A DNA stretch of 64,000 bases. It comes from Hyphomicrobiales bacterium (GTDB taxonomy: Bacteria; Pseudomonadota; Alphaproteobacteria; Rhizobiales; Beijerinckiaceae). A program made the position numbers and the translations under genes. This document shows positions 21,700 to 40,381 of the stretch, piece by piece. The notes below the pieces were generated by a model. That model was not told the DNA's origin, did no database searches, and was given only the letters and a program-made list of their open reading frames with translations. Each line of letters opens with the position of its first letter. Within the stretch, counting starts at the first letter, position 1. The stretch is from assembly GCA_947455995.1 (NCBI GenBank), contig CANGQA010000001.1, forward strand, positions 1 through 64,000. Reading direction: 5' to 3'.

Positions 21700-24600
21700 T
21701 CATTCTTGCACGCCGTAATCGCGCAAGGCCGTATCCTTCGAGATCAGGCCATTGGCCAGATCATTGATCACCAATTCTGTCTTGCGTTGACGAGGGTCGC
21801 CGAAACCGGCTCCGCCTGCAATGACAATTTCAACCACTTCATCAGGATTATTCAAACTGACCAGATCGCCGGTCCCGCAATCATGCAACAGCTTGCCTTG
21901 CAGGTCCATGACAACGCCACGCGCTTCTCCTCCTGCGTGACCGCCGAACAAGCCATCGGTCGGGTTGCCCACCCCTTCGGGATAGACCGAGACCAGCGTG
22001 GTTTGCTGGTCGGCTTCAAGCTTCCTGAAACGGATGCGCTGTCCAAGCCCGCCGCGTTGCTGGCCGGAGCCGCCTGAATCTTGAAGATAGGATTTCTCCA
22101 GGACCAGCACCGGCACGCGCGTTTCAAACAATTCGATCGAGGTATTAGCTGCCGAGGTTGGCCACAGCAGTCCTGACTTGCCATCATGCTGCGAGGAGGC
22201 CCCCTGACCGCCGCCGACAAACAATAAATCGCTATAGATCGTCCCATCGGCGGTCTGGCCATAAATGTTTGCCGCCACCGGCAGGCCAGTAAAGGCCTGC
22301 ACCTGATCGGATGCCGCATCAGCCAGCGCGCGGAAGATGTTGGGGGCGATATACCACCCCGTCCGCGTACGAATATTGACGGATGCCGGACGCTTGGGAT
22401 TGAGGATCGAGCCTTCGGGCGCCTTGACGGTGAAGGGCCTGTAGCAACCGGCATTGCCGCGCACCGATGGGGTCAGCATGCATTTCAGTGGATAGGTTGC
22501 ATGCGCCGCGGTGTAATTCAGCGTCGAATTCAGCCCTCCACGCGGCAATTGCGGCGGGGCGCCGGCGAAATCGACTTCGATCTCGTCATCTTTGACGGTT
22601 ACCGCCACCGGATAGGTCAGCACCTCGCCCAACGGATTGTTCTGGATCGTCGAATGGTAAACCCCATCGGGAATGGAACGAATGGCTTGGCGCATTGCCT
22701 GTTCGGAACGGTCCTGCACGACATGGGCAAGGGCACGCAAATCCTCCATGCCGTAATCATCCATGAAGGACAACAGACGTTCCGCGCCCAGGCGGTTGGC
22801 ACCCACGAAAGAGTTCAGATCACCGATCACCTGATCGCTGTTGCGGACGTTTTCGGCGAGCAGGCGATACAGCGATTCATTGGGGACACCCGCCTCAAAC
22901 AGCTTCATCGGCGGGATCTGGAAACCTTCCTCGTAGATCTCGCGGGCACGCAGCGAATCCTTGGTGCCGCCGATATCGGACACATGGCCAACCGTGCCGA
23001 GCAGCCCGACCAACTTGCCCTGCCGGAAGCATGGCGTGACCACTGCAATATCAAACAGATGACCAGCACAGAGCCAAGGGTCATTGGTAATAAGAACATC
23101 CCCTTCGCGCAGCGTTTCGGGCGGGTAGCGTTCCAGCAGCGCTTTGACGGCGAGTGGTAAAGTCAGATTGAACACCGGCATAGCGCGCGGCGAATGGGCC
23201 AGGGTTTCACCCGTGGCATCGAGTAACTCGCAGGCAAAGTCCTGGGATTCTGAAATCACCAGCGAGAAGGCCGTACGACACACCGTCAGCCACATTTCTT
23301 CCACGACATTGACGAGACGGCTCCACATGATTTCGAGCGCGATCGGATCGCGTTCGATCACGTTGATTGCATCAACCATCGGCATATCGGCACGGATCAT
23401 AATCGGTGCCTGATCTTGCGCGCCAATGCTGATGCGAAGATTGCCAACCTCATCGACACTGACCCGATCGCGCGGCGGAATCACCGTCGTGGCCTCGCGC
23501 TCCTCGATAATCGCCGGACCCTCGATAGTGGTGCCGGTTTTCAGGGCATAGCGGTCATAGACCGGCGTGGTGACAAAGGCATGATCGAAATAGGCTTCGC
23601 GCGTGCCCTTGAGCGCCGTGGTCCGGGTTGCGTCCTGCTCCGCGACCAGCGAAAGCTGCGGTGTCGGACCCGAACAGCGCACACGAAAATTGATGGCCTC
23701 AATGCGCGCATCTTCCGGCGGCTCGGTGAAGCGGCGGGAATAGACATCGATAAAGGCGTTGCGAATGGCCTTGAGGCTGTCATCGCCCAACTGGCCTGCG
23801 GGCAGGGGAACAGCAATATCGTGCATCTGTCCGACCAGACGCATATCGGCGCTGCGCTCGGTGATGACGCTATCTTGCGCAATGCCTGCGTCCACCAGAT
23901 TGGCTGTGGCCTGTGCGGCAAGGCCGTCCAGAATGTCGTTGACTGCCGCGCTGTTCCAGCCTGCCTTGAATTCGACAGGCATCGAGCGGGCGTTTTCAAA
24001 ACTGAGAGGGGCTGCCAGAAAGCCCAAAGCGGATGCTGCGCCCGATGCTGGCGGAATAATGACTTCGCGCACACCCAAGGCCGCTGCCACTTCGGCAACA
24101 TGGGCAGGGCCTGCCCCACCAAAACCGACCATAGCGTAGCTTCGCGGATCCTTGCCCTTCTCGACCAGATAGACGCGGGCGGCTGAGGCCATGCTTTCGA
24201 CGACGACCTTGTGAATTCCTGCCGCTGTCTCCTCAACGGACAGGCCGAGCTGCAAGCCTACCCGTTCCATCGCCGCGCGTGCGGCGGGCTGATCGAGCGA
24301 CATCCGGCCACCAAGAAAAAATCCGGGATCGTAATAGCCCAGCAGCAAATTAGCGTCTGTCACGGTGGGCTGAAGGCCACCCATGCCATAGCAGGCAGGG
24401 CCGGGATCGGAACCTGCCGATTGCGGACCAACCCTTAGCAGCCCCACTTCGTCGATGGCGGCAATCGAACCGCCACCCGCACCGATTTCAATCATATCAA
24501 TGACCGGTGCCTTGATCGGCAGGCCGGATCCTTTTTTGAACCGGTGAATACGCCCTGCTTCCATCATCGGGGCGATTTCGGCTTGCCCGTCCTCGATCAT

Positions 24601-25578
24601 ACAGGCCTTGGCGGTGGTGCCGCCCATATCGAAGGAAATGATATCGCGTTTGCCGGCGCGCAAGCCGAACAAAGCGGTGGCAAGCCCACCTCCTGCCGGT
24701 CCGGATTCCAGCAGCCTGATCGGAAAACGCCGCGCGGTATCAAGGGACGTCAGCCCGCCCGCTGAATGCATCAAGCGCAAGGCGCCGCCAAAGCCCCTTT
24801 GGCGCAGTTCTCTTTCCAGCCGCGTCAGATAACTGTCCATGAGAGGTTGCACATAGGCATTGGCGCAGGTGGTGGCGCAGCGTTGATATTCCCACAATTC
24901 CGCGACCACATCATGCGATAGCGACAAGGCCAGCTGCGGATAATGCCGCTTGGCCAATTCCGCCACCCGCAATTCATGGTCGGGATTGGCATAGGAATGG
25001 AGAAAACACACCGCCACGGCGGTGACATCCTGTGCGGCCAATTCACCCAGTCTTGCCAGCACATCGTCGTCACTCAGGTTGACAATGATCTTGCCGTCTC
25101 GGTCCATCCGCTCCCTGACTTCGAGCCGCAAGGCGCGCGGCACCATCGGTTCGGGAAAGCCCAAAAACAGATCATAAATATCGTAACGCTGTTCGGTGCC
25201 CATTTCGAGAATGTCACGAAAGCCAAGGGTGGTGATGAGCCCGACTTTGGCGCCGTTGCGCTCGATGATCGCGTTGGTCACCAAAGTAGTGCCATGGATC
25301 ATTTCGCTGACATCCGACAGCGAGATACCGGCCATGGCGACCAGCTCCTGCAAGCCGGTCAGCGCTGATTCTGACGGGTCGTGCGGTGAGGTCAACCGCT
25401 TGTGCAGTGTGACAGCCCCATGGTCATCGTCATAGAGAATGAAATCGGTGAATGTACCGCCAATATCGAAACCGATGCGCCAGCGGCCAATTGATCCCGA
25501 ACCCTTTGATCCAGAGGCCTTTATTTCTGGGGCCTGTGATGGCGTGGATTGCTTTGATCCCGAGATGTGTCGGTTCAT
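21700..25578 (-). CDS. Fused hydantoinase A/B (5-oxoprolinase family)
   Basis: A 1292-aa cytoplasmic enzyme in which the ATP-binding hydantoinase A part (about residues 33-710) is fused to hydantoinase B (about 745-1285). The A part has the actin-like phosphate loop FDIGGTFTDFILYD, a second one at SFDMGGTTAKACMIEDG, and IEIGAGGGSIA. The B part has FNLTLPLAVKA, NDPWLCAGHLFDIAVVTPCF and GTVGHVSDIGG. The family opens cyclic amides (5-oxoproline, hydantoins, related imides) using ATP. An N-terminal Ser/Gly/Lys tail of about 30 residues is low in complexity. The start overlaps the IclR stop by 4 bp. Whether the substrate is oxoproline, a hydantoin or acetophenone-like cannot be read from sequence. 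Confidence 0.9.
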   Translation of the reverse strand: MNRHISGSKQSTPSQAPEIKASGSKGSGSIGRWRIGFDIGGTFTDFILYDDDHGAVTLHKRLTSPHDPSESALTGLQELVAMAGISLSDVSEMIHGTTLVTNAIIERNGAKVGLITTLGFRDILEMGTEQRYDIYDLFLGFPEPMVPRALRLEVRERMDRDGKIIVNLSDDDVLARLGELAAQDVTAVAVCFLHSYANPDHELRVAELAKRHYPQLALSLSHDVVAELWEYQRCATTCANAYVQPLMDSYLTRLERELRQRGFGGALRLMHSAGGLTSLDTARRFPIRLLESGPAGGGLATALFGLRAGKRDIISFDMGGTTAKACMIEDGQAEIAPMMEAGRIHRFKKGSGLPIKAPVIDMIEIGAGGGSIAAIDEVGLLRVGPQSAGSDPGPACYGMGGLQPTVTDANLLLGYYDPGFFLGGRMSLDQPAARAAMERVGLQLGLSVEETAAGIHKVVVESMASAARVYLVEKGKDPRSYAMVGFGGAGPAHVAEVAAALGVREVIIPPASGAASALGFLAAPLSFENARSMPVEFKAGWNSAAVNDILDGLAAQATANLVDAGIAQDSVITERSADMRLVGQMHDIAVPLPAGQLGDDSLKAIRNAFIDVYSRRFTEPPEDARIEAINFRVRCSGPTPQLSLVAEQDATRTTALKGTREAYFDHAFVTTPVYDRYALKTGTTIEGPAIIEEREATTVIPPRDRVSVDEVGNLRISIGAQDQAPIMIRADMPMVDAINVIERDPIALEIMWSRLVNVVEEMWLTVCRTAFSLVISESQDFACELLDATGETLAHSPRAMPVFNLTLPLAVKALLERYPPETLREGDVLITNDPWLCAGHLFDIAVVTPCFRQGKLVGLLGTVGHVSDIGGTKDSLRAREIYEEGFQIPPMKLFEAGVPNESLYRLLAENVRNSDQVIGDLNSFVGANRLGAERLLSFMDDYGMEDLRALAHVVQDRSEQAMRQAIRSIPDGVYHSTIQNNPLGEVLTYPVAVTVKDDEIEVDFAGAPPQLPRGGLNSTLNYTAAHATYPLKCMLTPSVRGNAGCYRPFTVKAPEGSILNPKRPASVNIRTRTGWYIAPNIFRALADAASDQVQAFTGLPVAANIYGQTADGTIYSDLLFVGGGQGASSQHDGKSGLLWPTSAANTSIELFETRVPVLVLEKSYLQDSGGSGQQRGGLGQRIRFRKLEADQQTTLVSVYPEGVGNPTDGLFGGHAGGEARGVVMDLQGKLLHDCGTGDLVSLNNPDEVVEIVIAGGAGFGDPRQRKTELVINDLANGLISKDTALRDYGVQE

Positions 25579-28935: not shown

Positions 28936-30195
28936 ATGGTTACGGGCTCTAAACACAAAAAGGCGGCTGTCGCAGCTGTTGTCGGCAATGTGATGGAATG
29001 GTATGATTTTGCCGTTTATGCTTATGTGGCTAGCATCATCGCCAAGAAATTCTTTCCCGGTCAGGACGAGGTCGCCGCGCTGTTGTCGGCCTTTCTGGCT
29101 TATGGCCTGGGCTTTGTCGCCCGTCCGCTAGGTGGCATCATTATTGGACGCTTCGGCGACACCAAGGGTCGCAAGGCGGCTTTGTTGCTGACCATTTTCA
29201 TGATGGCCGGCGGTACGGTGATGATCGGTCTTCTGCCGACCTATGAACAAATTGGTTTTTACGCTCCCTTGTTACTGGTTGCCGCGCGTCTGATGCAGGG
29301 CTTTTCGGCAGGTGGCGAATGGGGCACATCAACCGCCTATCTGGTGGAATGGGCTCCGAGCAACCAGCGCGGCTATTACGGCAGCTTCCAGCAAATGAGC
29401 GTGGTTGCGGGCCTGTTGTTGGGGTCTGGCATCGCCGCTTTGATGAATACCGTGCTGACGGCAGAGGATATGCAGGGTTGGGGCTGGCGCGTGCCGTTCC
29501 TGATCGGCGGCATTCTTGGCCCGATCGGCCTCTATATGCGCCGTGAGATGGAAGAAACTCCCGCTTATGTCGCCGCGATCGAAGCGGCACCGGAGGCCGA
29601 TCAGCCTTCGGGTCTGGTACTGGCGATACGGGCTTTCGGTTTCACCATTGTCTGGACCGTTTGCTTCTATGTCTTGCTGAACTATATGCCGACATGGACC
29701 CAGAAATATCTGAAACTGACGGCTGCGCAGGCCTTGTGGGCCAATACGATCGGCCTTTTGGTGCTGGTGGTGGCCATTCCGTTGATGGGCCATCTGTCGG
29801 ACAAGTTAGGCCGCAAGCCTTTGTTGCTGGCCTGCTGTGCCTGTTTCGTCGTTGTCCCGCTGCCGGTGTTCAACTTCCTTATATCGGGTTCGGTCTCCTA
29901 TATGGAGCTGATTGCGGTACAGGTGGTTTTTGCCTTGATGATCTCGATGTTCTCCGGTGCTGGTCCGGCGGCGATTTCGGAAATTTTCCCGACGCGTAGC
30001 CGTTCGACATGGATGACTTCGGGTTATGCGCTGGCAGTGGCGATCTTCGGCGGCTTTGCACCGTTCATCGCAGTCTGGCTGATTACGACCTTCGATTCAC
30101 CGATTGCCCATAGCTATTATCTGATGGGTTCTGCTGTGATTTCGACCGTGGTGATCTGGGGTCTGAAGGAAACAGCCTTTACGGACCTGAAATAA
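28936..30195 (+). CDS. MFS transporter, MHS (metabolite:H+ symporter) family
   Basis: Inner-membrane symporter of 419 aa with about twelve helices. Family marks are GNVMEWYDFAVYAYV near the N-terminus, RPLGGIIIGRFGDTKGRKAALL (loop 2-3) and the later DKLGRKPLL repeat, as in ShiA, KgtP and ProP relatives that carry organic acids, shikimate or betaine. ATG 28936 follows AGGGGGAC. It is followed after 3 bp by an SDR gene and then a NodB-fold hydrolase, so it probably imports their substrate or exports the product. Confidence 0.87.
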   Translation: MVTGSKHKKAAVAAVVGNVMEWYDFAVYAYVASIIAKKFFPGQDEVAALLSAFLAYGLGFVARPLGGIIIGRFGDTKGRKAALLLTIFMMAGGTVMIGLLPTYEQIGFYAPLLLVAARLMQGFSAGGEWGTSTAYLVEWAPSNQRGYYGSFQQMSVVAGLLLGSGIAALMNTVLTAEDMQGWGWRVPFLIGGILGPIGLYMRREMEETPAYVAAIEAAPEADQPSGLVLAIRAFGFTIVWTVCFYVLLNYMPTWTQKYLKLTAAQALWANTIGLLVLVVAIPLMGHLSDKLGRKPLLLACCACFVVVPLPVFNFLISGSVSYMELIAVQVVFALMISMFSGAGPAAISEIFPTRSRSTWMTSGYALAVAIFGGFAPFIAVWLITTFDSPIAHSYYLMGSAVISTVVIWGLKETAFTDLK

Positions 30196-30198
30196 GCC

Positions 30199-30984
30199 AT
30201 GCAGATCAGGTTCGACGGCCAAACCATTCTTGTCGTAGGGGCAGCCAGAGGCATTGGCAGGGCCATTACCGAGGCATTCGCCCGCGATGGCGGAACGGTT
30301 TTTGCCGCCGACCTGCTGGCTGATGAGGTGCGTCACTATGCCGGGGCCTTCAACAAGGCCCCGGCAGCATCAGGCCAAGGGCATATCGAGGCGCGGGGTG
30401 TCGATGTGACCGACCGTGCAAGCCTGTCGGTCTGTGTTGCGGATATTGTCCGGCAACAGGGGCGGATTGATTGTCTGATCTATGTGGCGGGCGGGGTTCG
30501 TGGCCAATCGCCGAAACCGATCGAGGAGGTCGCGGCCGACGATTTCGCCGCGATCGTCGATGCCAATCTGACCGGCGCTTTTCTGACCGCTCAATCGGTG
30601 GTGCCGATCATGAAAAAGGCTGGAAAGGGGCGGATCGTGGTGATTGCGAGCCGCGCCGGTCTTGCCCCCAGCCTGACAGGGATACAAAGCTATGCCGCCG
30701 CCAAACACGCGCAAGTCGGGCTGGTCAAACAGTTAGCCCACGAGTTGGGCCAGTTCGGCATTACCGTCAATGCGGTGGCTCCGGGTTTTATGGCGACCAG
30801 CCCCGATTATGTCCGGCAATGGAACAGCTATTCGGATGAAACCCGCGCCAATTTTACCAAAACCATTGCAGTCCGCCGGATGGGGCAACCTGAAGATATT
30901 GCGGATGCGACATTGTTTCTTGCCTCTGACCACGCCTCGTTCATTACAGGCCAGACCCTGCCGGTAACAGGATCGCCACTTTGA
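30199..30984 (+). CDS. Short-chain dehydrogenase/reductase
   Basis: Soluble NAD(P)-dependent oxidoreductase of 261 aa. It has the cofactor motif GAARGIG (residues 14-20), the YVAGG counterpart of NNAG, and the catalytic Ser (VIASRAG), Tyr and Lys (SYAAAKHAQ). PGFMATSP is the typical segment after beta-strand 6. It lies 3 bp after the MFS gene and 30 bp before the hydrolase gene, clearly one operon. Substrate unknown. Confidence 0.86.
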   Translation: MQIRFDGQTILVVGAARGIGRAITEAFARDGGTVFAADLLADEVRHYAGAFNKAPAASGQGHIEARGVDVTDRASLSVCVADIVRQQGRIDCLIYVAGGVRGQSPKPIEEVAADDFAAIVDANLTGAFLTAQSVVPIMKKAGKGRIVVIASRAGLAPSLTGIQSYAAAKHAQVGLVKQLAHELGQFGITVNAVAPGFMATSPDYVRQWNSYSDETRANFTKTIAVRRMGQPEDIADATLFLASDHASFITGQTLPVTGSPL

Positions 30985-31014: not shown

Positions 31015-31911
31015 ATGACCACAACAGCAATGGAACCTTGGCAGTGGCCTGAACCTCATTGGCGCAAACTTGTGAATCAGGTGCGTGCGGGACGCTCCTA
31101 CCGGCCCGCTGGCTGGAAGAATGGCGCACGCTGTGCTTTTGCTTTGTCCTTCGATGCCGATCATGAAACCAATGAATTGCGCGATGGCGGAAAATCGATC
31201 GGGCGGATGGCTTGGGGTGAATATGGCACCCGCGTCGGTGTGCCCCGTATTCTGAAACTGCTCAAAAAATATGATGTTCCTGCCACCTTCTATGTTCCCG
31301 CAGTGGCTGCGATGCTGCACCCTGAAGAACAGCGGCAGGTGATTGCCGAAGGCCATGAAATTGGTATCCATGGCTGGATCCACGAATTGAATTCTGTGTT
31401 GCCCTACGAGGTCGAGCGCGATCTGATGATGCGTTCTGCCGACGAGCTGGAAAAGATCACCGGGGTCAGGGCTGTCGGGCTGCGCACACCTTCATGGGAT
31501 TTTAGCCCCAATACGCTTAAAATCGAGCGTGACATGGGGCTGCTTTATGATTCCTCGCTGATGGCTGATGAGGATTGTTACGAATTACTGCTCGATGGCA
31601 CGCCCTCCGGTGTGGTCGAATTGCCGGTAGAGTGGGTACGTGATGATGCGGTCTATTTCATGATGCACCGTTTCCAGTCCCTGCGCCCCCATACGCCACC
31701 CGCCTCTGTGCTTGATATTTTCCGGCGTGAGTTTGAAGCGGCATATGAGGAAGGCGGTATTTTCCAGCTGACCACCCATCCCCACATCATCGGCTATCGG
31801 TCGCGCATCTGGATTATTGAGGAATTGATCCGCATGGCCAAGGCCAAGGGCGATGTTTGGTTTGCAACCCATGCTGATGTTGCACGCTTCGCCAAAGAAA
31901 ATGCAGCCTGA
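31015..31911 (+). CDS. NodB-fold polysaccharide deacetylase-like hydrolase
   Basis: A 298-aa protein without signal peptide, so cytoplasmic. NodB motifs are SFDADHE (Asp47, Asp49), HGWIH (His119, His123) for the metal, RTPSWDF and THPHIIGY. This subgroup (near Helicobacter PgdA and PuuE) contains both peptidoglycan deacetylases and amidohydrolases acting on cyclic amides; a Pseudomonas cyclic-imide hydrolase of similar length belongs here as far as I recall. Absence of a signal and company of SDR, MFS and a racemase-like protein favour a cyclic amide or imide over a glycan. Its stop directly abuts the stop of the convergent gene. Confidence 0.75.
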   Translation: MTTTAMEPWQWPEPHWRKLVNQVRAGRSYRPAGWKNGARCAFALSFDADHETNELRDGGKSIGRMAWGEYGTRVGVPRILKLLKKYDVPATFYVPAVAAMLHPEEQRQVIAEGHEIGIHGWIHELNSVLPYEVERDLMMRSADELEKITGVRAVGLRTPSWDFSPNTLKIERDMGLLYDSSLMADEDCYELLLDGTPSGVVELPVEWVRDDAVYFMMHRFQSLRPHTPPASVLDIFRREFEAAYEEGGIFQLTTHPHIIGYRSRIWIIEELIRMAKAKGDVWFATHADVARFAKENAA

Positions 31912-32577
31912 TCAGCTTGATTGACTCTGCACCATCAGGCCGATGCGCCTGATGGCAGCCGGCACAGGCTCGATCAGCCTGACAGGCAGACGGGGAGCCA
32001 AAGCGCGGGCGGCCAAAGCCAGCGGCCCGCCGCCGATGATCAACGAGGCCGTATCGATGCCTGTCTGTTGTATCGCCGCGTGGCAGGCCTCCTCCAGGCG
32101 TTCGACCAGCAAAGCCGGATCACGGGTCACTGCAACGGGATCGCCGCGCGTCAGAAAAACACCGTGAAAGAGCGGGCGTAACCCTAGCCGATCGGCCATT
32201 GACTGGATTGAATCTGCCAGATCGGGCGTTGTGGTGACGACAGCAAACCCGCCTGTCTCAGACGCTTCCAGCATGCTGGCTTCGCCAATTCCGGTGACGG
32301 GACAGTCAAGCCCGGCCTGCAAGGCTTGCAAACCAGGATCACCATAGGCGGCAGTGATAACGCCGTCCCATGTTTGCGCCCGCAGATCGGGGATCATGCG
32401 GGCCAGCACCTCGCCGGCTTGCTGCAAGGCATGGGGTTCGGTAATCATCGCCACACCCTCGGGGGCAGTGATGGCTTCGATGTGCAGCCAATCAGATGCC
32501 GCCTCGCGGCCAATTTCAAGCATGCTTGCTGTGGTAGCCGCATTGGTATTGGGATTGATCAGCAGGATACGCTTCAT
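31912..32577 (-). CDS. Asp/Glu/hydantoin racemase-family protein lacking both catalytic Cys
   Basis: A 221-aa cytoplasmic protein of the hydantoin racemase type: INPNTNAATTASM at the N-terminus, DGVITAAYGDPGLQAL in the middle and LIIGGGPLALAA near the C-terminus. Known hydantoin racemases use two cysteines, in A-C-F-G-D-P and L-G-C-A-G. Here the matching positions are Ala77 and Gly183, so a two-base racemase mechanism is unlikely. Other Cys (92, 165) are not at these places. It may be a decarboxylase-like, isomerase or binding relative. It lies 6 bp after the ATPase gene of the importer at 32584-38175, so it is the last gene of that operon. Confidence 0.78.
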   Translation of the reverse strand: MKRILLINPNTNAATTASMLEIGREAASDWLHIEAITAPEGVAMITEPHALQQAGEVLARMIPDLRAQTWDGVITAAYGDPGLQALQAGLDCPVTGIGEASMLEASETGGFAVVTTTPDLADSIQSMADRLGLRPLFHGVFLTRGDPVAVTRDPALLVERLEEACHAAIQQTGIDTASLIIGGGPLALAARALAPRLPVRLIEPVPAAIRRIGLMVQSQSS

Positions 32578-32583
32578 AACCCG

Positions 32584-33543
32584 TCACGCATGGATGCAGG
32601 CAACGGCATTATCGTAGTCTCCGGTCACAAGCGGCGGGACCTGTTGATGGCAGGCTTGCGTCGCCATATCGCATCGTGGAGCAAAAGCACAACCGGGCGG
32701 CAGGGCCGTCAAATCCGGCGGCGAACCGGGAATGGTTTTCAGCCTATCGCCTTTTTGTGCCCGTTCAACGCGCGAGGCCAGCAAGCCACGCGTATAGGGA
32801 TGGCGCGGTGAGTGCATAATATCGGCAACCGATCCTGTTTCCACGATACGGCCAGCATACATCACAGCGATCTTGTCGGCGATTTCAACCGCTACCCCGA
32901 TGTCGTGCGTGACAAAGATAATCGACAGACCCAGTTCACGCTGCAAGGCACGCAGCAACAGCAGAATTTGGATTTGTACTGTCGCATCGAGCGCCGTTGT
33001 CGGCTCGTCGGCCAGCAGCACTTTGGGACGGCAAGCCAGTGCCAGCGCAATCATCGCCCGTTGGCGCATCCCGCCCGACATTTCATGCGGATAGGCATTG
33101 AGGCGGCGTTCGGGTGAGGGGATTTGCACCTTCTCGAATAGCGCAAGGGCGCGGGCATGGGCCTGTTCGGGCGTTACATCCTCATGCCGCAAAATCGCCT
33201 CGCAAATTTGCTGGCCCAGCGTATAGACCGGATCCAATGCCAGCATTGGTTCCTGGAAGATCATCGACACAGTGCGTCCGCGAACCGTACCGATCTCGGT
33301 TTTCGACAATGCCATGATGTCATGGCCATCCACCACAATGCGGCCTTCGACCTTCGAGGTTTTTTCCGGATGAAGACGAAGCAGCGAGCGCAGGGTAACG
33401 CTTTTGCCCGACCCGGATTCCCCGAGCAAAACGAGTACGGAACCTTTTTTCACCTCCAGCGACACATGGTCGACGGCTCGAACGGGTTTCCCACGTCCGG
33501 TGAATGTGACGGTCAGTCCTTCAATCGAAACCAGATTGCTCAT
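32584..33543 (-). CDS. Dpp-type ABC transporter ATP-binding protein (DppD-like)
   Basis: Cytoplasmic ATPase of 319 aa. Walker A is GESGSGKSVTL, followed by SMIFQEPMLALDPVYTLGQQ, MSGGMRQRAMIA and [11 protein letters not shown], and the C-terminal Cys motif GCAFAPRCDMATQAC. ATG 33543 overlaps the partner ATPase stop by 4 bp (ATGA). It serves the importer headed by the binding protein at 36571. Confidence 0.88.
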   Translation of the reverse strand: MSNLVSIEGLTVTFTGRGKPVRAVDHVSLEVKKGSVLVLLGESGSGKSVTLRSLLRLHPEKTSKVEGRIVVDGHDIMALSKTEIGTVRGRTVSMIFQEPMLALDPVYTLGQQICEAILRHEDVTPEQAHARALALFEKVQIPSPERRLNAYPHEMSGGMRQRAMIALALACRPKVLLADEPTTALDATVQIQILLLLRALQRELGLSIIFVTHDIGVAVEIADKIAVMYAGRIVETGSVADIMHSPRHPYTRGLLASRVERAQKGDRLKTIPGSPPDLTALPPGCAFAPRCDMATQACHQQVPPLVTGDYDNAVACIHA

Positions 33544-34610
33544 GCGTGCGCCTCCGGCATAGCCACTCTTGCGGCGTGCGAATGTCCCGATTGCGGCACG
33601 AGAACAAGACAGGCCGCCTGACTGGTGCCCGAGGCACTGGCTGTCAAAGGAGGAACAATGGTCTGGCATGCCGGTTCTGCCAATTTACAGCGCGGGTGGA
33701 ACCGGCAACCCGATGGCGGATTGATCGGGTTGGGTGGATCGCCCGTCAAAGGTGCTTCCATGGTCCGGTCGGAAGGGTCCATTTTCGGCATCGATGCCAG
33801 CAAAGCTGCGGTGTAGGGATGCGAGGGTGCGGCAAACACCGCTTCGCCGTCGCCAAGTTCGGCAATGGTGCCCAGATACATCACCATCACCCGATCGACC
33901 ATGAACCTCACGACATTCAGATCATGTGAAATAAAGATATAAGTGAGGCCGAAATCGGCTTTGAGGTCCTGCAAAAGATTGAGCACTTGCGCTTCGACCG
34001 ACTTGTCGAGCGCCGAAACCGCTTCATCCAAAATCAACAGGCGCGGGTCAAGGGCCAAAGCCCGCGCAATATTGACGCGTTGGCGCTGGCCACCCGATAA
34101 TTCATGGGGATAGCGTCCGGCAAATCGTGAGGGATCAAGCCCGACCCGTGCTAGCAGATCATGCGCCTTGGCGCGCGCCGCCGTTTCCGCCATGCCATGG
34201 ATGCGCGGCCCGAAGGTAATAGAATCTTCAATGGTCAAACGAGGATTAAGCGAGGCATAGCTGTCTTGAAACACCATCTGCACCTGACGGCGATACTCAG
34301 CGAGAGGTAAATCGATCCCGACCATCTCGCCGTCGAAAATAATCTCGCCTTGATCCGGTTTAATCAGATGCATCAGCAGCCGTGCGGTTGTGGATTTGCC
34401 GCAGCCGCTTTCTCCGACCACACCGAGTGTTTCGCCTTTTCGGATGTCGAAGCTGACCCCGTCAACCGCACGAACCACTCCGCCACGTCCGAAAAACCCG
34501 CTGCTTTTGACCGGAAAATGCTTGATCAACCCGTTGACACTCAACAGGCTTTGAGCCGGACCGCCCCTGTCGCGTTCGTCAAGAGCAGAATGATGGGGTG
34601 TGGTGATCAT
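33540..34610 (-). CDS. Dpp-type ABC transporter ATP-binding protein (DppF-like)
   Basis: Cytoplasmic ATPase of 356 aa. It has Walker [57 protein letters not shown] and the C-terminal [15 protein letters not shown]. In the Walker B region the usual DEPVSALD reads DEAVSALD, a small deviation after the catalytic Glu. The gene overlaps both neighbours by 4 bp. Confidence 0.88.
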
Positions 34611-35497
34611 GATTTGACATCCATGGCTGAGCGCAAGCCATCTGCCAGCACATTAAAGGCAATCGAGGTAATAAAAATCATCGCTCCAGGCAGGGCGGCG
34701 ACCAGCGGTTGATTGTAAATGGCGGTACGCAGGGTGTTCAGCATGAGACCCCATTCGGGCTCTGGCGGCCTGACACCAAGCCCGAGAAAGGACAAGCCTG
34801 AGGCCAAAATCATCGAGACCGACACCAGACCTGTGGCATATACAAAAATAGGTCCGAGCACATTGCCCAACACATGCACGCGGATGATGGTCCAGGCATG
34901 TGCACCGGAAGCGCGAGCGGCATCGATATAATCGAGCGATCGCACTTGTGTGGTTACGCTTTCGGCCACCCTTGCAATGGGCGGAATAAACACCAAGGTG
35001 ATCGATACCAGCGCATTGGTCAGTCCCGCTCCCAGTGCTCCCGACAAGGCTACCGCCAACAGAACGGACGGAAAGGCATAAAAGACATCAATGGTCCGCA
35101 TGATCAGTGTATTGGTCAGGCCGCCCGTATAGCCTGCTGTGATCCCCAATGCTGAACCGATCACAAAGGCAATTGGCACCGGTGTCAGGCCCATCAGCAA
35201 TGACAGACGTGCACCGTAAATCAGACGCGATAGCATGTCGCGACCCAACTCATCTGCTCCCAGAGGAAAGCCCGGCGTACCGATCGGCTTCAGACGGCGC
35301 AGCATTGAGCTTTTGAACGGATCGGAAGGGGCAATCGAGGAAGCAAAAACCGCCATCAGAATAAGCGAGACAATCACCAGTAAGGCTGTCATTGCCACCG
35401 GATCACGTGACACACGCCGGACAACGCCGCTCCAGTAGCCAGGGGATCGGGCGATCGGCTGCAAGACGGAGGCTGTCGAAAGCTGCAAAACAGACAT
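34607..35497 (-). CDS. Dpp-type ABC permease (DppC-like)
   Basis: Inner-membrane permease of 296 aa. FPLGADELGRDMLSRLIYGARLS, the loop DAARASGAHAWTIIRVHVL and FNVLADGLRSAMDVK mark the DppC type. ATG 35497 (MSVLQLSTAS) is preceded by GAGGAGAG; a longer reading would overlap the upstream gene by 160 bp with no membrane character. It is the partner of the DppB-like protein at 35512. Confidence 0.88.
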   Translation of the reverse strand: MSVLQLSTASVLQPIARSPGYWSGVVRRVSRDPVAMTALLVIVSLILMAVFASSIAPSDPFKSSMLRRLKPIGTPGFPLGADELGRDMLSRLIYGARLSLLMGLTPVPIAFVIGSALGITAGYTGGLTNTLIMRTIDVFYAFPSVLLAVALSGALGAGLTNALVSITLVFIPPIARVAESVTTQVRSLDYIDAARASGAHAWTIIRVHVLGNVLGPIFVYATGLVSVSMILASGLSFLGLGVRPPEPEWGLMLNTLRTAIYNQPLVAALPGAMIFITSIAFNVLADGLRSAMDVKS

Positions 35498-35511
35498 GTG
35501 ATGCTCTCCTC

Positions 35512-36465
35512 TCAAGTACGCTGGACGCGGGGATCGATCGCCGATTGCACGACATCGACAGCGAGATTCAAGAACACAAAAAACAAAGCAAGCACCAAAA
35601 TTGTCCCTTGCAGCAAAGGCAAATCGCGCTGGAAAATAGCGGCATTGAGCAAAAAGCCGGTTCCCGGCCATGAGAACACGGTCTCGATCAGGATCGAGCC
35701 GCCTAACAGATAACCGAGTTGCAGGCCCATCACGGCAAAGGCCGTCGGAGCGGCATTTTTCAAAACGTGGCGAAACACGCCACGCTCTGTCAGTCCTTTT
35801 GCGGCGAGGGCCTGCACAAATTCCTGTGTGAGGATTTCACCCACCAGCGCGCGGACACTGCGCGCGATAATCCCCATGGGAATGACCGACATTGTTACCG
35901 CAGGCAATATGAGAAAGCGCAGGTAATTCCAATCGAACGATCGGTTCGCCGATCCATCCGGTCCGCCGCCGGTGGCAGGCAGCCAGCCCAGCTGCACCGA
36001 AAACACAATGACCAGAACCATACCGAGCCAGTAGTGGGGAACCGACACGCCAAGGCTGGAGATCAGCGAAGCGGCGCGATCAACCCAGGTCCCTTGATAA
36101 TAGCCCGCAACGATGCCCAGCAGACTGCCCAACACAAAGCCGATCAGTGTGGCTGCTGCCGCAATGACAAGCGAGTTGGTTACGGCATTGAACACTTCGC
36201 TAACAACTGGACGGCCAGTTGCAATGGATTGGCCGAGATCGCCATGAAGAACCCGCCAGATCCATAATCCATATTGGACAGGGAGTGGCTTGTCGAAGCC
36301 ATAGAGTGTGCGCATCTGCGCTTGCAATTCTGCAGAAGCATCGGTGGGAAGCACAGCCGTGAGCGGATCCCCGGGCGCCAGATGGACAAGCATGAAACAG
36401 ACTAGGCTGACGCCGATGGCAACCGGCACGGTCAGGATGAAACGCTTCAATGTATAAAACAGCAT
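35512..36465 (-). CDS. Dpp-type ABC permease (DppB-like)
   Basis: Inner-membrane permease of about 317 aa starting MLFYTLKRFILTVPVAIGVS, then LVHLAPGDPLTAVLP. The EAA-like loop is LAAKGLTERGVFRHVLKNAAP. A GTG at 36480 would add five residues; neither start has a strong ribosome site. It follows the binding-protein gene after about 100 bp containing a hairpin. Confidence 0.86.
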   Translation of the reverse strand: MLFYTLKRFILTVPVAIGVSLVCFMLVHLAPGDPLTAVLPTDASAELQAQMRTLYGFDKPLPVQYGLWIWRVLHGDLGQSIATGRPVVSEVFNAVTNSLVIAAAATLIGFVLGSLLGIVAGYYQGTWVDRAASLISSLGVSVPHYWLGMVLVIVFSVQLGWLPATGGGPDGSANRSFDWNYLRFLILPAVTMSVIPMGIIARSVRALVGEILTQEFVQALAAKGLTERGVFRHVLKNAAPTAFAVMGLQLGYLLGGSILIETVFSWPGTGFLLNAAIFQRDLPLLQGTILVLALFFVFLNLAVDVVQSAIDPRVQRT

Positions 36466-36517
36466 GATTGTCACCGACACTTTTTGTAACGATTTCTGAT
36501 GATCGAATTGGGTGTCT

Positions 36518-36570: not shown

Positions 36571-38175
36571 TTACTTGTCCATCGAGATCGAGGAAAAGTC
36601 CTGGAACCAGTTTTGGGCCTGGATAAAGCCTTTGACTTTCTTGCTCATGGCACGTGGATTGACATCATGCGTCACCATCAGGAAAAGGGCATCATCGACA
36701 TATTTCTCGTGGATTTTTTCCAAAATAGCTGTCTGTCCAGCTTTGTCGAAGGTGTTGCGGACCTGCTGGAACAACGTGTCCATTTCGGCATCGCAATAAT
36801 AGCCCCAATTCGTGCCGGCAGGTGGTGCCAGATCACATTGCAGATGGCGGATGAAGCCGGTGAAGGGATCCTGAATGAAATAGGTATAGTTCATTCCGGT
36901 CGCCCCGCGTGCGCTCTCATGCTTGGCACCGGCACGCCAGATATTGATCAGCGTGTTCCATTCCACGACTTCAAAGTCGATCATGATGCCGATTTCAGCC
37001 AGATTTTGCTGGACGAATTCGTTCATCGGCAAAGGCTGCATCTGACCTGAGCCCGATGCCGAGATCAGTATCTTGGTCTTGAGCGGTTTGCCAGGACCAT
37101 AGCCTGCCTCAGCCATCAGCTTTTTTGCCTCGGCAACATTATGGCTCAGCTTGAACTTTGGTGTGCCAAACCATTGGTGACCTGGCGGGAAAAAGCCCTG
37201 GGCCGGAATCATCATGCCGCTCAGCAATTCTTTCAAACCATCGCGGTCAATCGCCAGATTGGCCGCTTTGCGGACACGGATATCATTCCAGGGCGAACCC
37301 TCGATGCGTGACAGATGCCATGTCCAATTGTGCGGATAGGAATTGGTGATGATGTCGAACCCGGCTTGCTTGAGCGAGGGAATGGCATCGGGGGTGGGCG
37401 ACTCGATCCAGTCCACCTGACCCGACCGCAAAGCCGCAACGCGGGCATTGGCTTCAGGGAGTGGAATCAGGACCATCTTGTCGAGTTTGGGCACACGCGC
37501 CTTTTCCCAATAATCCGCATTGGGGACCATTTCAACGCGCTCGCGCGGAACAAAATTGGTGATTTTCCAAGGCCCGGTGCCCGATGGGCTCTTGGCTACC
37601 GCATCCCAACTCTTACCCTGCTTTTCCCAGTTGGCGGGTGAAGAAATCATGATCCATGCGAGTTGGTAAGGCAAAGTCGCATCTGGAGTTTTTGTTGTAA
37701 TTTCGAGAGTCAGCGGATCAATCGCCCGATAGGTGGCCACCGCAGGAATGCGCGAACGGCCCTGTGCGGATTGGCGTGGATCAAACTGCGGAGATTCTTT
37801 GACCAACAGCTTATCGAGGTTCCAGACAATCGCATCAGCGGTGAGCAGGCTGCCATCGTGGAATTTCACGCCATCGCGCAATTTGAAAATCCACTTGGTC
37901 TTGTCGCTCGCATCCACAGTCCAGGACACGGCAAGGCCGGGTACAAGGTCGGATGGTTTGGTGGCACTGGTCAGATCCCAATTGACAAGGGAATCATAGG
38001 CGGTGAAGCCGAGGAAGCGTTGGCCTTCGCCGCCATTGTCGGTTTGGCCGGTGGTCAGCGGAATGTCGGATGCCGTCATGCCGATCCGCAAAGTGCCTTG
38101 TGCCCATGTGGCTGTGGTAGAGGCCAGCACCATCATGGCAGTGAGACAGGTGGCTAATTTTAACTTACTCATCAT
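36571..38175 (-). CDS. Extracytoplasmic solute-binding protein, family 5 (DppA type)
   Basis: Periplasmic binding protein of 534 aa with a Sec signal ending near TTATWAQG. Family 5 marks are LVPGLAVSWTVDASDKTKW, GVKFHDGSLLTADAIVWNLD and RVRKAANLAIDRDGL. Tandem ATG codons at 38175 and 38172 follow GGAGGGTAC. It is the first gene of the operon ending with the racemase-like protein at 31912. A candidate sigma-54 promoter lies 30-44 bp upstream, which suggests nitrogen control and a nitrogen-containing ligand. Confidence 0.87.
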   Translation of the reverse strand: MMSKLKLATCLTAMMVLASTTATWAQGTLRIGMTASDIPLTTGQTDNGGEGQRFLGFTAYDSLVNWDLTSATKPSDLVPGLAVSWTVDASDKTKWIFKLRDGVKFHDGSLLTADAIVWNLDKLLVKESPQFDPRQSAQGRSRIPAVATYRAIDPLTLEITTKTPDATLPYQLAWIMISSPANWEKQGKSWDAVAKSPSGTGPWKITNFVPRERVEMVPNADYWEKARVPKLDKMVLIPLPEANARVAALRSGQVDWIESPTPDAIPSLKQAGFDIITNSYPHNWTWHLSRIEGSPWNDIRVRKAANLAIDRDGLKELLSGMMIPAQGFFPPGHQWFGTPKFKLSHNVAEAKKLMAEAGYGPGKPLKTKILISASGSGQMQPLPMNEFVQQNLAEIGIMIDFEVVEWNTLINIWRAGAKHESARGATGMNYTYFIQDPFTGFIRHLQCDLAPPAGTNWGYYCDAEMDTLFQQVRNTFDKAGQTAILEKIHEKYVDDALFLMVTHDVNPRAMSKKVKGFIQAQNWFQDFSSISMDK

Positions 38176-38204
38176 GTACCCTCCTATGGTCTGGGAAGGG
38201 CAAC

Positions 38205-38219
38205 GCAAGAAGCCTGCCA
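38205..38219 (-). promoter_or_regulatory. Candidate sigma-54 promoter for the importer operon at 31912-38175
   Basis: On the minus strand TGGCAG-GCTTC-TTGC has GG and GC exactly 10 nt apart, as sigma-54 promoters require; it differs from the TGGCAC-N5-TTGC consensus at one base. Its distance to the start codon is right for a short leader. No upstream activator site could be assigned. Confidence 0.5.
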
Positions 38220-38329
38220 AAGCCGGAAAAGACTTTTTCTCTTGGAATAATATAGCCGAAAATCAGATAAATTCCGGTGTTTTTTAGACTATTACCCTGA
38301 TTTTACATTCATTTTTTTAATTTACTTAT

Positions 38330-38461: not shown

Positions 38462-39040
38462 TCACAATGAGCCGGCCAGCAATCCAGCACCGATGACCGC
38501 AAGGCCCAATCCAGTGGCCTTGCCGATGAGCGGATTGGCTCTGAGTCCCAGTCCCAAGCCGCATGTATGAAGCAGGCCGGTTGCGGTCAAAAAGCCGAGC
38601 CCATAGGCCAGACCATTGGCATCGGATGGCATTTCAACGCCATGGGCCATGCCATGCGCCAAGCCGAAAAAAGCGGACAGCGACAAGCCCGCGATAACCG
38701 GAGCCTGCCAGCCCGAAGCCACCACCAGACCCAAGCCGGCCACCGAGGCGGCAATCATCAATTCGGTTGCGGGCAGGCTCACGCCCTGCACGCCGAAAAA
38801 CGCACCTACAGCCACAAAGGCCACAAAGCCCAGCGGCCAGATAAAGCGGGCATTTTGCCCAACCAGTGCCGCCCAAAAACCGACAGCCAGCATCGCCAGA
38901 ACATGATCAATCCCGCCGAGCGGATGGACAAATCCTGCCAGAAAATCATGGTCGTGCCAGCCTGTTCCGGTATGGGCAAATGCTGGTAATGTGAAGCCCA
39001 GCATCAGGCTGGACAGAGTGAGCATTCTTAAAGTGCGCAT
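38462..39040 (-). CDS. hupE: HupE/UreJ family nickel-permease-like protein
   Basis: Inner-membrane protein of 192 aa with a signal-like first helix and about six further helices. The diagnostic motif is HPLGGIDH near residue 39, preceded by the His-rich HTGTGWHDHD; a second His cluster is FFGLAHGMAHGVEMP. Members take up nickel for hydrogenase or urease. It is the last gene of the urease operon, 40 bp after ureG. ATG 39040 (MRTLRMLTL) fits a signal peptide start; a longer reading overlaps ureG and is rejected. With no ureE in the cluster, this is the only nickel-handling candidate besides UreG. Confidence 0.85.
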   Translation of the reverse strand: MRTLRMLTLSSLMLGFTLPAFAHTGTGWHDHDFLAGFVHPLGGIDHVLAMLAVGFWAALVGQNARFIWPLGFVAFVAVGAFFGVQGVSLPATELMIAASVAGLGLVVASGWQAPVIAGLSLSAFFGLAHGMAHGVEMPSDANGLAYGLGFLTATGLLHTCGLGLGLRANPLIGKATGLGLAVIGAGLLAGSL

Positions 39041-39080
39041 GGAATAAGCCTTTCTATAAGCAAGGAAAATTTCAGTATTT

Positions 39081-39704
39081 TCAGCGCGAGGCAAGTCCGC
39101 CCGCCTGTTCGATAAAATCGATGACGGTTTGGACACCTTCGCCTGTCCGCATATTGGAAAAGACATAGGGCCGACCCCGCCGCATCAGCTTGGTGTCGTG
39201 ATCCATGACCTCAAGACTGGCCCCGACATGCGGAGCAAGGTCGATCTTGTTGATGACCAGCAGGTCGGAACGGGTAATGCCCGGCCCCCCTTTCCGAGGT
39301 ATTTTTTCACCGCCGGCGACGTCGATCACATAGACAGTCAGATCAGCCAATTCGGGTGAAAAGGTTGCGGCCAGATTGTCGCCACCCGATTCAATCAGGA
39401 TGAGATCGAGATCGGGAAACCGCGCGTTCATGGTGGCAATCGCTGCCAGATTAATCGAGCAATCCTCGCGAATAGCGGTATGCGGACAACCGCCGGTTTC
39501 AACTCCCATGATCCGATCTTCCGGCAGCGCGCCCGAGATGGTCAGCAAGCGGGCATCTTCCTTGGTATAGATGTCATTGGTAATAGCACACAGCTTGATG
39601 CGATGAGCCATCGCTTTGCACAAAGCTTCCATCAAAGCCGTTTTGCCGGATCCGACCGGTCCGCCGATGCCAACGCGCAAAGGTCCGTGGGAAGTATGGG
39701 TCAT
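39081..39704 (-). CDS. ureG: Urease accessory GTPase UreG
   Basis: Cytoplasmic GTPase (207 aa) that drives nickel delivery to urease with UreD and UreF. P-loop GGPVGSGKT (residues 14-22), the nickel-binding Cys-Pro-His of [30 protein letters not shown] and the base motif [12 protein letters not shown] are all intact. The N-terminus (MTHTSHG) is short and has no His-rich extension, which some bacteria use to replace UreE. Its start overlaps the ureF stop by 4 bp. Confidence 0.95.
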
Positions 39705-40381
39705 GAGCGGAAAAGCCTCGTATATTGGGTTTCATGGCGCATTGAAGCGATGTCTGAACGAAAGGCGCAAGTGCCTAAATCGGCAAGGGTGGCGTTGGTC
39801 GTTTCACAGCTGATGCTCTCTATCAGCGGCAGCAGGGCTGCAATCACCCGTTGTCCGTCGGATTGGCCCAATGGCCCCAGCCGGATCAGGGCAGAGACCA
39901 GATTGCTGATAAAGGATAAAGCAAAAGCCGAGACGGTTTGCTCAATTGGGATATCGTGGCTGGCTGCCACCAACCCCAAGGCAACCGGATAGGTCACTCC
40001 ATCGGCAAGAGCGGGTTTCAATGTCAGCAAGGTCGGGCGCGACCAAGCCGACATGGCTGCCAGCATGAAGGCCTGCCCCTGCATGGTGGCTTCCAGCCAC
40101 CGCTCGGATGATGGCTGCAAAGCGCAGGTCAGTTCGGCGAGGTCACGAAGTTGCGCCAGATCGTGTTTGGAAGCGGCTTGCCAGGCAATTGCCACAGTGC
40201 AGCAATCGCTATAACCCGAACCATGTTGCAGCAGGTCCCTGAGCCACAATGTCGCGCTGTCAGCATCATGGATGTCGCCCGCTTCCACTGCCCATTCCAG
40301 CCCGTGCGAAAAGGCAAATGCTCCCACCGGAAATGACGGTGATAGCCAGACCAGCAAAGGCAGGGTTGCGGGATTGATCAT
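39701..40381 (-). CDS. ureF: Urease accessory protein UreF
   Basis: A 226-aa helical protein that acts with UreD and UreG in nickel insertion. The N-terminal [25 protein letters not shown] is the UreF hallmark, with [14 protein letters not shown] and [20 protein letters not shown] further on. It follows ureC after 14 bp, where many clusters have ureE; no ureE is present. It is translationally coupled to ureG. Confidence 0.93.

Follow-up and report, generated by a model that had tools for sequence, protein, structure and literature searches.

A hydantoin/allantoin-racemase-like protein without either catalytic cysteine at the end of an importer operon

Gene content of the locus

The window, the whole stretch of 64,000 nucleotides that has been analysed, encodes at 31912..32577 on the minus strand a hydantoin/allantoin-racemase-like protein of 221 amino acids without a cysteine dyad. 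The open reading frame, a match to PF01177, a structural model and structure matches identify the protein, for which we will use the name RacG. The reading frame starts with ATG and contains no internal stop codons. RacG is the last gene of an apparent peptide-type (oligopeptide) importer operon and is preceded by five importer genes on the same strand. Domain searches identify a solute-binding protein (SBP_bac_5; 36571..38220), two permeases (BPD_transp_1, 35512..36480; BPD_transp_1 with OppC_N, 34607..35671) and an ATPase (ABC_tran with oligo_HPY; 32584..33669), the gene of which lies 6 bp upstream of RacG. A second ATPase (33540..34610) has been recognised from its sequence and clusters with importer ATPases across loci.

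Domain searches also place three genes on the plus strand, facing RacG. The nearest encodes a NodB-fold hydrolase (Polysacc_deac_1; 31015..31911) whose relatives include 3rxz and the PuuE allantoinase 3cl6. It is convergent with RacG, and the two genes stand tail to tail with their last bases adjacent (31912/31911). The original prediction had described RacG as part of an importer operon facing a NodB-fold hydrolase, and this is the arrangement found. The similarity of the NodB-fold protein to PuuE is remote (72.4 bits against a cut-off of 424.6), and the genome that encodes it holds eight matches to the protein, itself included. Next to it lie genes for an SDR oxidoreductase (30199..30984) and an MHS-type MFS transporter (28936..30195), which occupy the same places in the two loci closest to this one.

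HupE/UreJ, UreG-type and UreF genes lie directly beyond the importer (38462-40381, minus strand), so that the cluster adjoins urease accessory genes. On the other side, beyond the MHS transporter, are EamA and UPRT genes, an IclR regulator and a fused hydantoinase A/B. The last of these (21700-25578, minus strand) joins hydantoinase A and B domains in 1292 amino acids, and the nearest NCBIfam model, a caprolactamase subunit, scores well below its cut-off. A further two NodB-fold proteins related to the one at 31015-31911 are encoded 2-4 kb past the window end (G000:C1:66115-68406).

Fold and family membership of RacG

RacG matches PF01177, the Asp/Glu/hydantoin racemase superfamily, with 115.6 bits against a cut-off of 31, over profile positions 1-210 of 211. 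No NCBIfam family matches it at E 0.1. Among solved structures, a sequence search at E 0.01 finds the allantoin racemases of K. pneumoniae (KpAllR) and P. fluorescens (PfAllR), and a profile of 49 sequences adds the hydantoin racemase 2eq5 and then the epimerase OpaE. Together with the GDPGL motif, which RacG has in common with KpAllR, the PF01177 score bears out the original reading that the family fold signals remain.

A structure prediction had been suggested as a check and has been carried out. The AlphaFold2 model of RacG has a mean pLDDT of 96.0 and a pTM of 0.92, and Foldseek aligns it with both allantoin racemases, with TM scores of 0.91 to KpAllR (3qvk) and 0.90 to PfAllR (5lg5). The VIA-align Z scores are 28.7 for 5lg5, 27.9 for 3qvk, 24.1 for 2eq5 and 21.2 for OpaE (9qbx), and lie at ~14–17 for maleate isomerases, aspartate/glutamate racemases and arylmalonate decarboxylases (2xed, 17.4). 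By pLDDT, TM score and Z score alike, the model has the two-lobed racemase fold.

Absence of both catalytic cysteines

The racemases of this superfamily usually carry two cysteines that face each other, and altering either of them usually kills or redirects the enzyme. Maleate isomerases have catalytic cysteines at the equivalent sites. In KpAllR, the catalytic pair is given as Cys79 and Cys184 in an excerpt of PMC12661438; in the numbering of the chain sequence they are residues 77 and 182. A phmmer alignment of RacG with KpAllR (3qvj, E 1.5e-14) places Ala77 (codon 32347..32349, minus strand, counted from the start of the reading frame) opposite the first cysteine and Gly183 (codon 32029..32031, minus strand), which lies in the motif GGGPL, opposite the second. 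The sequence of 3qvk and 3qvl, which has serine at both catalytic sites, gives an identical alignment. The alignment with the allantoin racemases therefore confirms the central claim of the original prediction, that RacG has neither catalytic cysteine. RacG is not a two-cysteine racemase, and the loss of both thiols excludes a two-thiol mechanism.

Two other cysteines of RacG have been considered as hidden catalytic residues, since either of them in the active site would overturn this reading. Cys92 stands opposite a glycine of KpAllR and is a cysteine in just 19 of the 101 proteins of RacG's own class (class I, defined below). Cys165 stands opposite a non-catalytic cysteine of KpAllR and is a cysteine in 36 of the 101. 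Neither aligns with a catalytic cysteine, and both have been rejected.

RacG is similar to KpAllR (3qvj, 3qvk, 3qvl) in fold (29% identity), in the NPN and TT contact positions and in GDPGL, but it has Ala77, Gly183 and GGGPL where KpAllR has Cys79, Cys184 and GCGGM. PfAllR (5lfd, 5lg5) shares the fold as well (Z 28.7). Like RacG, it lacks the first cysteine and has an acidic residue three positions further on, the columns of Ala77 and Asp80 being occupied by Gly75 and Glu78 (5lfd); unlike RacG, which has Gly183 there, it keeps the second cysteine. Glu78 is said, in the 2016 work of Cendron and colleagues, to replace the missing cysteine of PfAllR. Members with a single cysteine are thus already known, in arylmalonate decarboxylase and, reportedly, in PfAllR. 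No report on a member that lacks both cysteines has been found in the titles and abstracts listed by searches of the open-licence literature.

Arylmalonate decarboxylases share the superfamily fold of RacG (3ixl, 2vlb, 3dg9), and one of their catalytic cysteines is naturally glycine. They differ from RacG in keeping Cys188, described as the proton donor in an excerpt of PMC4996985. RacG has been rejected as a member of this group: their motif ILLSCGGL (same excerpt) stands against LIIGGGPL at what is probably the corresponding stretch of RacG. OpaE, an epimerase of a peptide-derived compound, and NozR, a diketopiperazine isomerase, belong to the fold family of RacG as well, but excerpts of PMC12661438 and PMC10156859 describe two cysteines as required in these enzymes.

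A class of relatives without the cysteine pair

The relatives of RacG have been sorted into four classes. Class I, RacG's own kind, has alanine or glycine at position 77 together with GGGPL; class II has Ala77 and Gly183 without GGGPL, mostly with GAPL; class III has Cys77 and Gly183; and class IV has Cys/Cys, as in KpAllR. The non-redundant sets hold 101 (window included), 15, 14 and 8 proteins, respectively, and one further protein (L037, Gly77/Cys183) falls outside all four. The classes are set by residues 77 and 183 themselves, and class counts at these positions describe the classes and do not test them. Five comparisons are independent of the class rule: GGGPL against residue 77, Ala/Gly77-Gly183 against Pro185, a motif-free HMM search, a score-ranked sample of 398 genomes, and a tree.

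Residue 77 is alanine in 100 of all 101 non-redundant GGGPL proteins, glycine in one and cysteine in none. All 116 proteins that combine Ala/Gly77 with Gly183 have Pro185, and none of the 22 with Cys77 does. The motif-free HMM search, run on 110 loci that had been picked as RacG relatives, returned 119 racemase-like genes, comprising 116 Ala/Gly, one Gly/Gly, one Cys/Gly and one Cys/Cys. The profile search of 398 genomes of the phylum (E 1e-20) gave matches in 88, and residues were read from 30 loci, one each from 30 of these 88 genomes; some of the resulting rows repeat genes from earlier sets. The nine best rows (213–296 bits, RacG included) all have A77, D80 and G183. There are 32 rows, two of which are other genes of RacG's own genome, and 30 align at both sites; L220 failed to align and L006 is without the second site. 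The aligned rows divide into 16 with Ala77, each of which has Pro185, and 14 with Cys77, from which Pro185 is absent.

Relatives of any of the four classes occur in 49 of 385 genomes of RacG's taxonomic class (E 1e-10 or better) and in 39 of 199 genomes of its order (E 1e-15 or better), its own included in both counts. For genes of RacG's own kind, called by motif from the loci read and with L017 excluded, the lower bounds are 6 genomes out of the 385 and 20 out of the 199. A contig scan adds, among the matches listed, Sinomonas, Arthrobacter and Streptomyces from the Actinobacteria and many Burkholderiales. The scan pattern contained IGGGPL, so Gly183 is selected for in its at least 80 loci, while Ala77 was in neither pattern.

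In a quick unrooted tree, 65 of 66 motif-assigned class-I rows lie on one branch (SH-aLRT 100, stem 0.97), which holds no rows of classes II, III or IV. L017 carries the class-I motif yet groups with class II, which makes the motif rule imperfect, and the support for class-II monophyly is just 19. Conservation of the Ala/Gly pair in a subfamily had been named as a check, and it is answered here by the 101 GGGPL proteins without Cys77 and by their clade in the tree. On this sequence evidence, the loss of the cysteines is a family trait of a clade.

These data also bear on whether RacG is a decaying or mis-aligned gene. Nothing beyond the missing cysteines speaks for decay. The two closest relatives are 79% and 74–75% identical to RacG, and comparison with them gives dN/dS values of ~0.18 (dN 0.146, dS 0.795) for one and ~0.23 (dN 0.178, dS 0.779) for the other. 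Purifying selection at this level, the same residue pair in all GGGPL relatives, an intact reading frame and a pLDDT of 96 refute decay, which keeps practically no probability. RacG had originally been judged probably functional, and this judgement is upheld by the conserved clade, the dN/dS of ~0.2, the retained substrate-contact positions and the recurring importer operons.

Retained pocket residues

The substrate contacts of KpAllR are listed as Asn12, Thr118 and Thr119 in an excerpt of PMC12661438. They correspond to N10, T115 and T116 of RacG, which are kept in 101, 99 and 87 of the 101 class-I proteins, so at these positions RacG has the residues of a two-thiol racemase. Conservation of 80% or more in class I is seen for the polar residues N8, N10, T15, T16, T37, D80, E99, T115, T116, T117 and D146, of which only N8, N10 and D80 are invariant. 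The same residue is commonest in all four classes and in KpAllR at N8, N10, T16, D80, P81, G96, E99 and A105. Thr117, Pro185 and Pro204 are specific to class I.

Asp80 (codon 32338..32340, minus strand) occupies the position of Glu78 of PfAllR, and no other acidic or basic residue is invariant among the 101 class-I proteins; E99 is kept in 96, D146 in 84 and R210 in 73. We propose Asp80 as the putative single acid/base of class I. Asp80, three residues after Ala77, is also conserved in the Cys/Cys enzymes, and for this reason its invariance alone shows no catalytic role. Arg210 is, from its conservation, an alternative candidate for the catalytic residue. It is present in 46 of 49 rows of alignment A2, against 73 of 101 in the wider set, and its position is occupied by lysine in KpAllR and by threonine in PfAllR.

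Genomic context of the relatives

The two closest relatives (L100 and L101) show the same gene order as the window, with the importer followed by RacG and with the NodB, SDR and MHS genes facing it. At L100, one permease gene has not been recognised, and a gene for a protein related to HupE/UreJ of the window stands before the importer. Neighbouring genes have been called by conservation across loci, a procedure that still misses genes. Of 115 class-I genes, 37 have a NodB gene no more than 600 bp away and 51 have one no more than 6.5 kb away. The corresponding numbers are 2 and 5 of 15 for class II, 0 and 2 of 9 for class III and 0 and 0 of 6 for class IV, all from sampled stretches that differ in length. 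The 115 class-I genes represent at most 112 places, as L080/L130, L076/L161 and L077/L124 look like duplicates. No NodB gene has been found at seven stand-alone Ala/Gly loci outside class I (L186-L192, where L191 is the L017 gene).

The families found within 5 kb at the 80 named-genome loci listed are this ABC ATPase family (33), NodB (31), amidohydrolase (12), RpiR regulator (11), two MFS families (11 and 9) and amidase (10). The enzymes near class-I genes include a PuuE-like NodB, a TRZ/ATZ-type amidohydrolase, an amidase (NF006169, over cut-off), an FAA-hydrolase fold, an allantoate-amidohydrolase-type enzyme (NF006769, over cut-off), a ureidoglycolate-lyase-like protein (below cut-off), and SIS and PfkB proteins; some genes have none. 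The neighbouring enzymes vary among loci and so do not point to one common substrate.

Plasmid contexts have been read at nine annotated loci, out of 87 plasmid records with a match, and all nine genes are class I by motif. At six of the nine, the apparent operon encodes no enzyme besides RacG, and the remaining genes are transport genes and a regulator. An RpiR-MFS-RacG operon is found on plasmids of Aminobacter, a Comamonadaceae strain and Shinella, and an importer-RacG-regulator operon on plasmids of Neorhizobium, Rhizobium and Agrobacterium, one of the regulators being annotated only as a DNA-binding protein. The importer faces RacG on the Haematobacter and Chelatococcus plasmids, and in Palleronia the regulator and importer diverge from it. 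These three of nine loci count against the picture of a shared operon. The Chelatococcus cluster also carries an allantoate-amidohydrolase-type enzyme and a ureidoglycolate-lyase-like protein.

Pairs of the HpxA-HpxB type are a known case of a racemase-family gene that adjoins the gene of a PuuE-type allantoinase of the NodB fold. The RacG locus differs from such pairs in that RacG has no catalytic cysteine and the NodB-fold protein is a remote relative of PuuE. Since NodB is not next door in most relatives, and since some operons contain only transport genes and a regulator besides RacG, RacG appears to act as an enzyme in its own right and not as a helper of the NodB hydrolase. Alternatively, RacG could have no catalytic function and, by holding what the importer brings in, tune the transporter, the hydrolase or a regulator. 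In favour of such a binder, the pocket is kept without either catalytic residue, and the gene is found among transporters, in many cases together with an RpiR or GntR regulator. Asp80 and the pocket positions are, however, very strictly kept, the partners change between loci without a constant partner being seen, and the MFS-RacG operons leave no other enzyme for the chemistry. We consider a binding role improbable.

It has also been considered that a second subunit might contribute the missing acid in trans, for example a class-II paralogue encoded in the same cluster. Class-I and class-II genes do share a stretch in eight loci, two of which are the same contig (L080/L130), but class II is also without both cysteines and only those eight loci showed a class-II gene beside class I. 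RacG's own genome has no class-II gene in a profile search at E 1e-20, the two matches being RacG itself and a Cys/Cys gene. The probability of this arrangement is very small.

Cysteine-less genes of classes I and II lie on one stretch at L073, L074, L080, L096, L127, L144 and L154, and each of these stretches has a NodB-fold gene. At four other loci (L104, L109, L110 and L116), a class-I gene is accompanied by SIS-domain proteins, a PfkB-type protein and two NodB-fold genes, and three of the four also have a TRZ/ATZ-type amidohydrolase. We read the latter clusters as reminiscent of amino-sugar or Amadori-compound catabolism.

Proposed mechanism and competing readings

Three features suggest that RacG is still an enzyme and acts on a small imported ring compound: the frame of the pocket, the invariance of Asp80 and the operons. 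RacG would then be a working cytoplasmic enzyme of a clade within the hydantoin/allantoin racemase family that has given up both catalytic thiols. Its substrate, as far as the class can be inferred, would be a small cyclic amide, imide or ureide with a hydantoin-like ring, delivered by the adjacent transporter. The ring would be held by the retained contact residues Asn8/Asn10 and Thr115/Thr116. On one face, the carboxylate of Asp80 would replace the thiol and act as a single base, taking the acidic ring proton and leaving an enolate. On the other face, there would be no second acid but the main-chain NH groups of Gly183, Gly184 and Pro185 at the start of a helix. The outcome would be a one-base isomerisation to an epimer or tautomer, in which form the compound could be used by an enantioselective ring hydrolase such as the NodB/PuuE-like protein encoded beside RacG.

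Some precedent exists for such chemistry. Hydantoin racemase exchanges deuterium via an enolate, and substrates with an acidic C-H are described as suited to stepwise chemistry in an excerpt of PMC8142540. A cysteine-free isomerase is plausible because Asp80 sits where PfAllR, which is without the first cysteine, has Glu78. PfAllR keeps its second cysteine, and RacG does not, which counts against the Asp80 model. Mutants of two relatives are also relevant. Cys-to-Ala mutants of NozR have no detectable activity (excerpt of PMC10156859), and OpaE retains 4.8% activity when the first cysteine is changed to serine and at most 0.3% when the second or both are changed (excerpt of PMC12661438). In those relatives, the loss of the thiols alone leaves no good isomerase.

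RacG could instead catalyse a reaction of another type, namely ring opening, elimination or decarboxylation. Water or a larger group would then enter the room vacated by the thiols, and the reaction would be assisted by Asp80 and the Thr115-Thr117 and Gly182-Pro185 loops. Changes at the catalytic positions have gone along with changed reactions before. Arylmalonate decarboxylase, with Gly74 and Cys188, has a changed base and a changed reaction (excerpt of PMC4996985), and an excerpt of PMC8142540 connects a Cys-to-Thr exchange in one Asp/Glu racemase with irreversible conversion and, in a hydroxyproline epimerase of a different family, with dehydratase activity. The class-specific Thr117, Pro185 and Pro204 suggest retuned chemistry, and RacG as the sole enzyme at six of the nine plasmid loci points the same way. 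On the other hand, the arylmalonate decarboxylases retain one cysteine for proton donation, the maleate isomerase structure 2xed has, by its title, a succinyl-cysteine intermediate, and the positions that contact the ring in racemases are kept in RacG. A hydrolytic, eliminating or decarboxylating reaction is doubtful, and is nearly as likely as isomerisation. The original prediction named another reaction or a binding role and made no mention of the match between Asp80 and Glu78 of PfAllR, by which a cysteine-free isomerase is as plausible as a wholly different reaction.

We tentatively prefer the one-base mechanism, in which Asp80 forms the enolate and the reaction is most likely an isomerisation that feeds ring hydrolases, although its probability is somewhat below one half. 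A slightly better chance, still just short of even, is given to the broader proposal that class I is a widespread uncharacterised family with a thiol-free racemase pocket. In such a family, a lone Asp80 would face an anion cradle of glycine and proline and catalyse the first step of many importer-linked pathways for cyclic amides or ureides, an activity that would be new to the superfamily.

A clade that extends across two classes of Proteobacteria and into the Actinobacteria, with both cysteines replaced and the contacts kept, is a natural experiment on a thiol-free scaffold. Where its genes carry the annotation 'aspartate/glutamate racemase family protein' or 'hydantoin racemase', the names are probably misleading. 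The linked solute-binding proteins offer a direct route to the substrate of RacG.

The 14 non-redundant proteins of class III (L063, L020, L024, L029 and others) form one further branch with a support of 98. They have the first cysteine only (LACFGDPGL with LGGAGLAGLA) and are in this respect the mirror image of arylmalonate decarboxylase, which has the second cysteine only.
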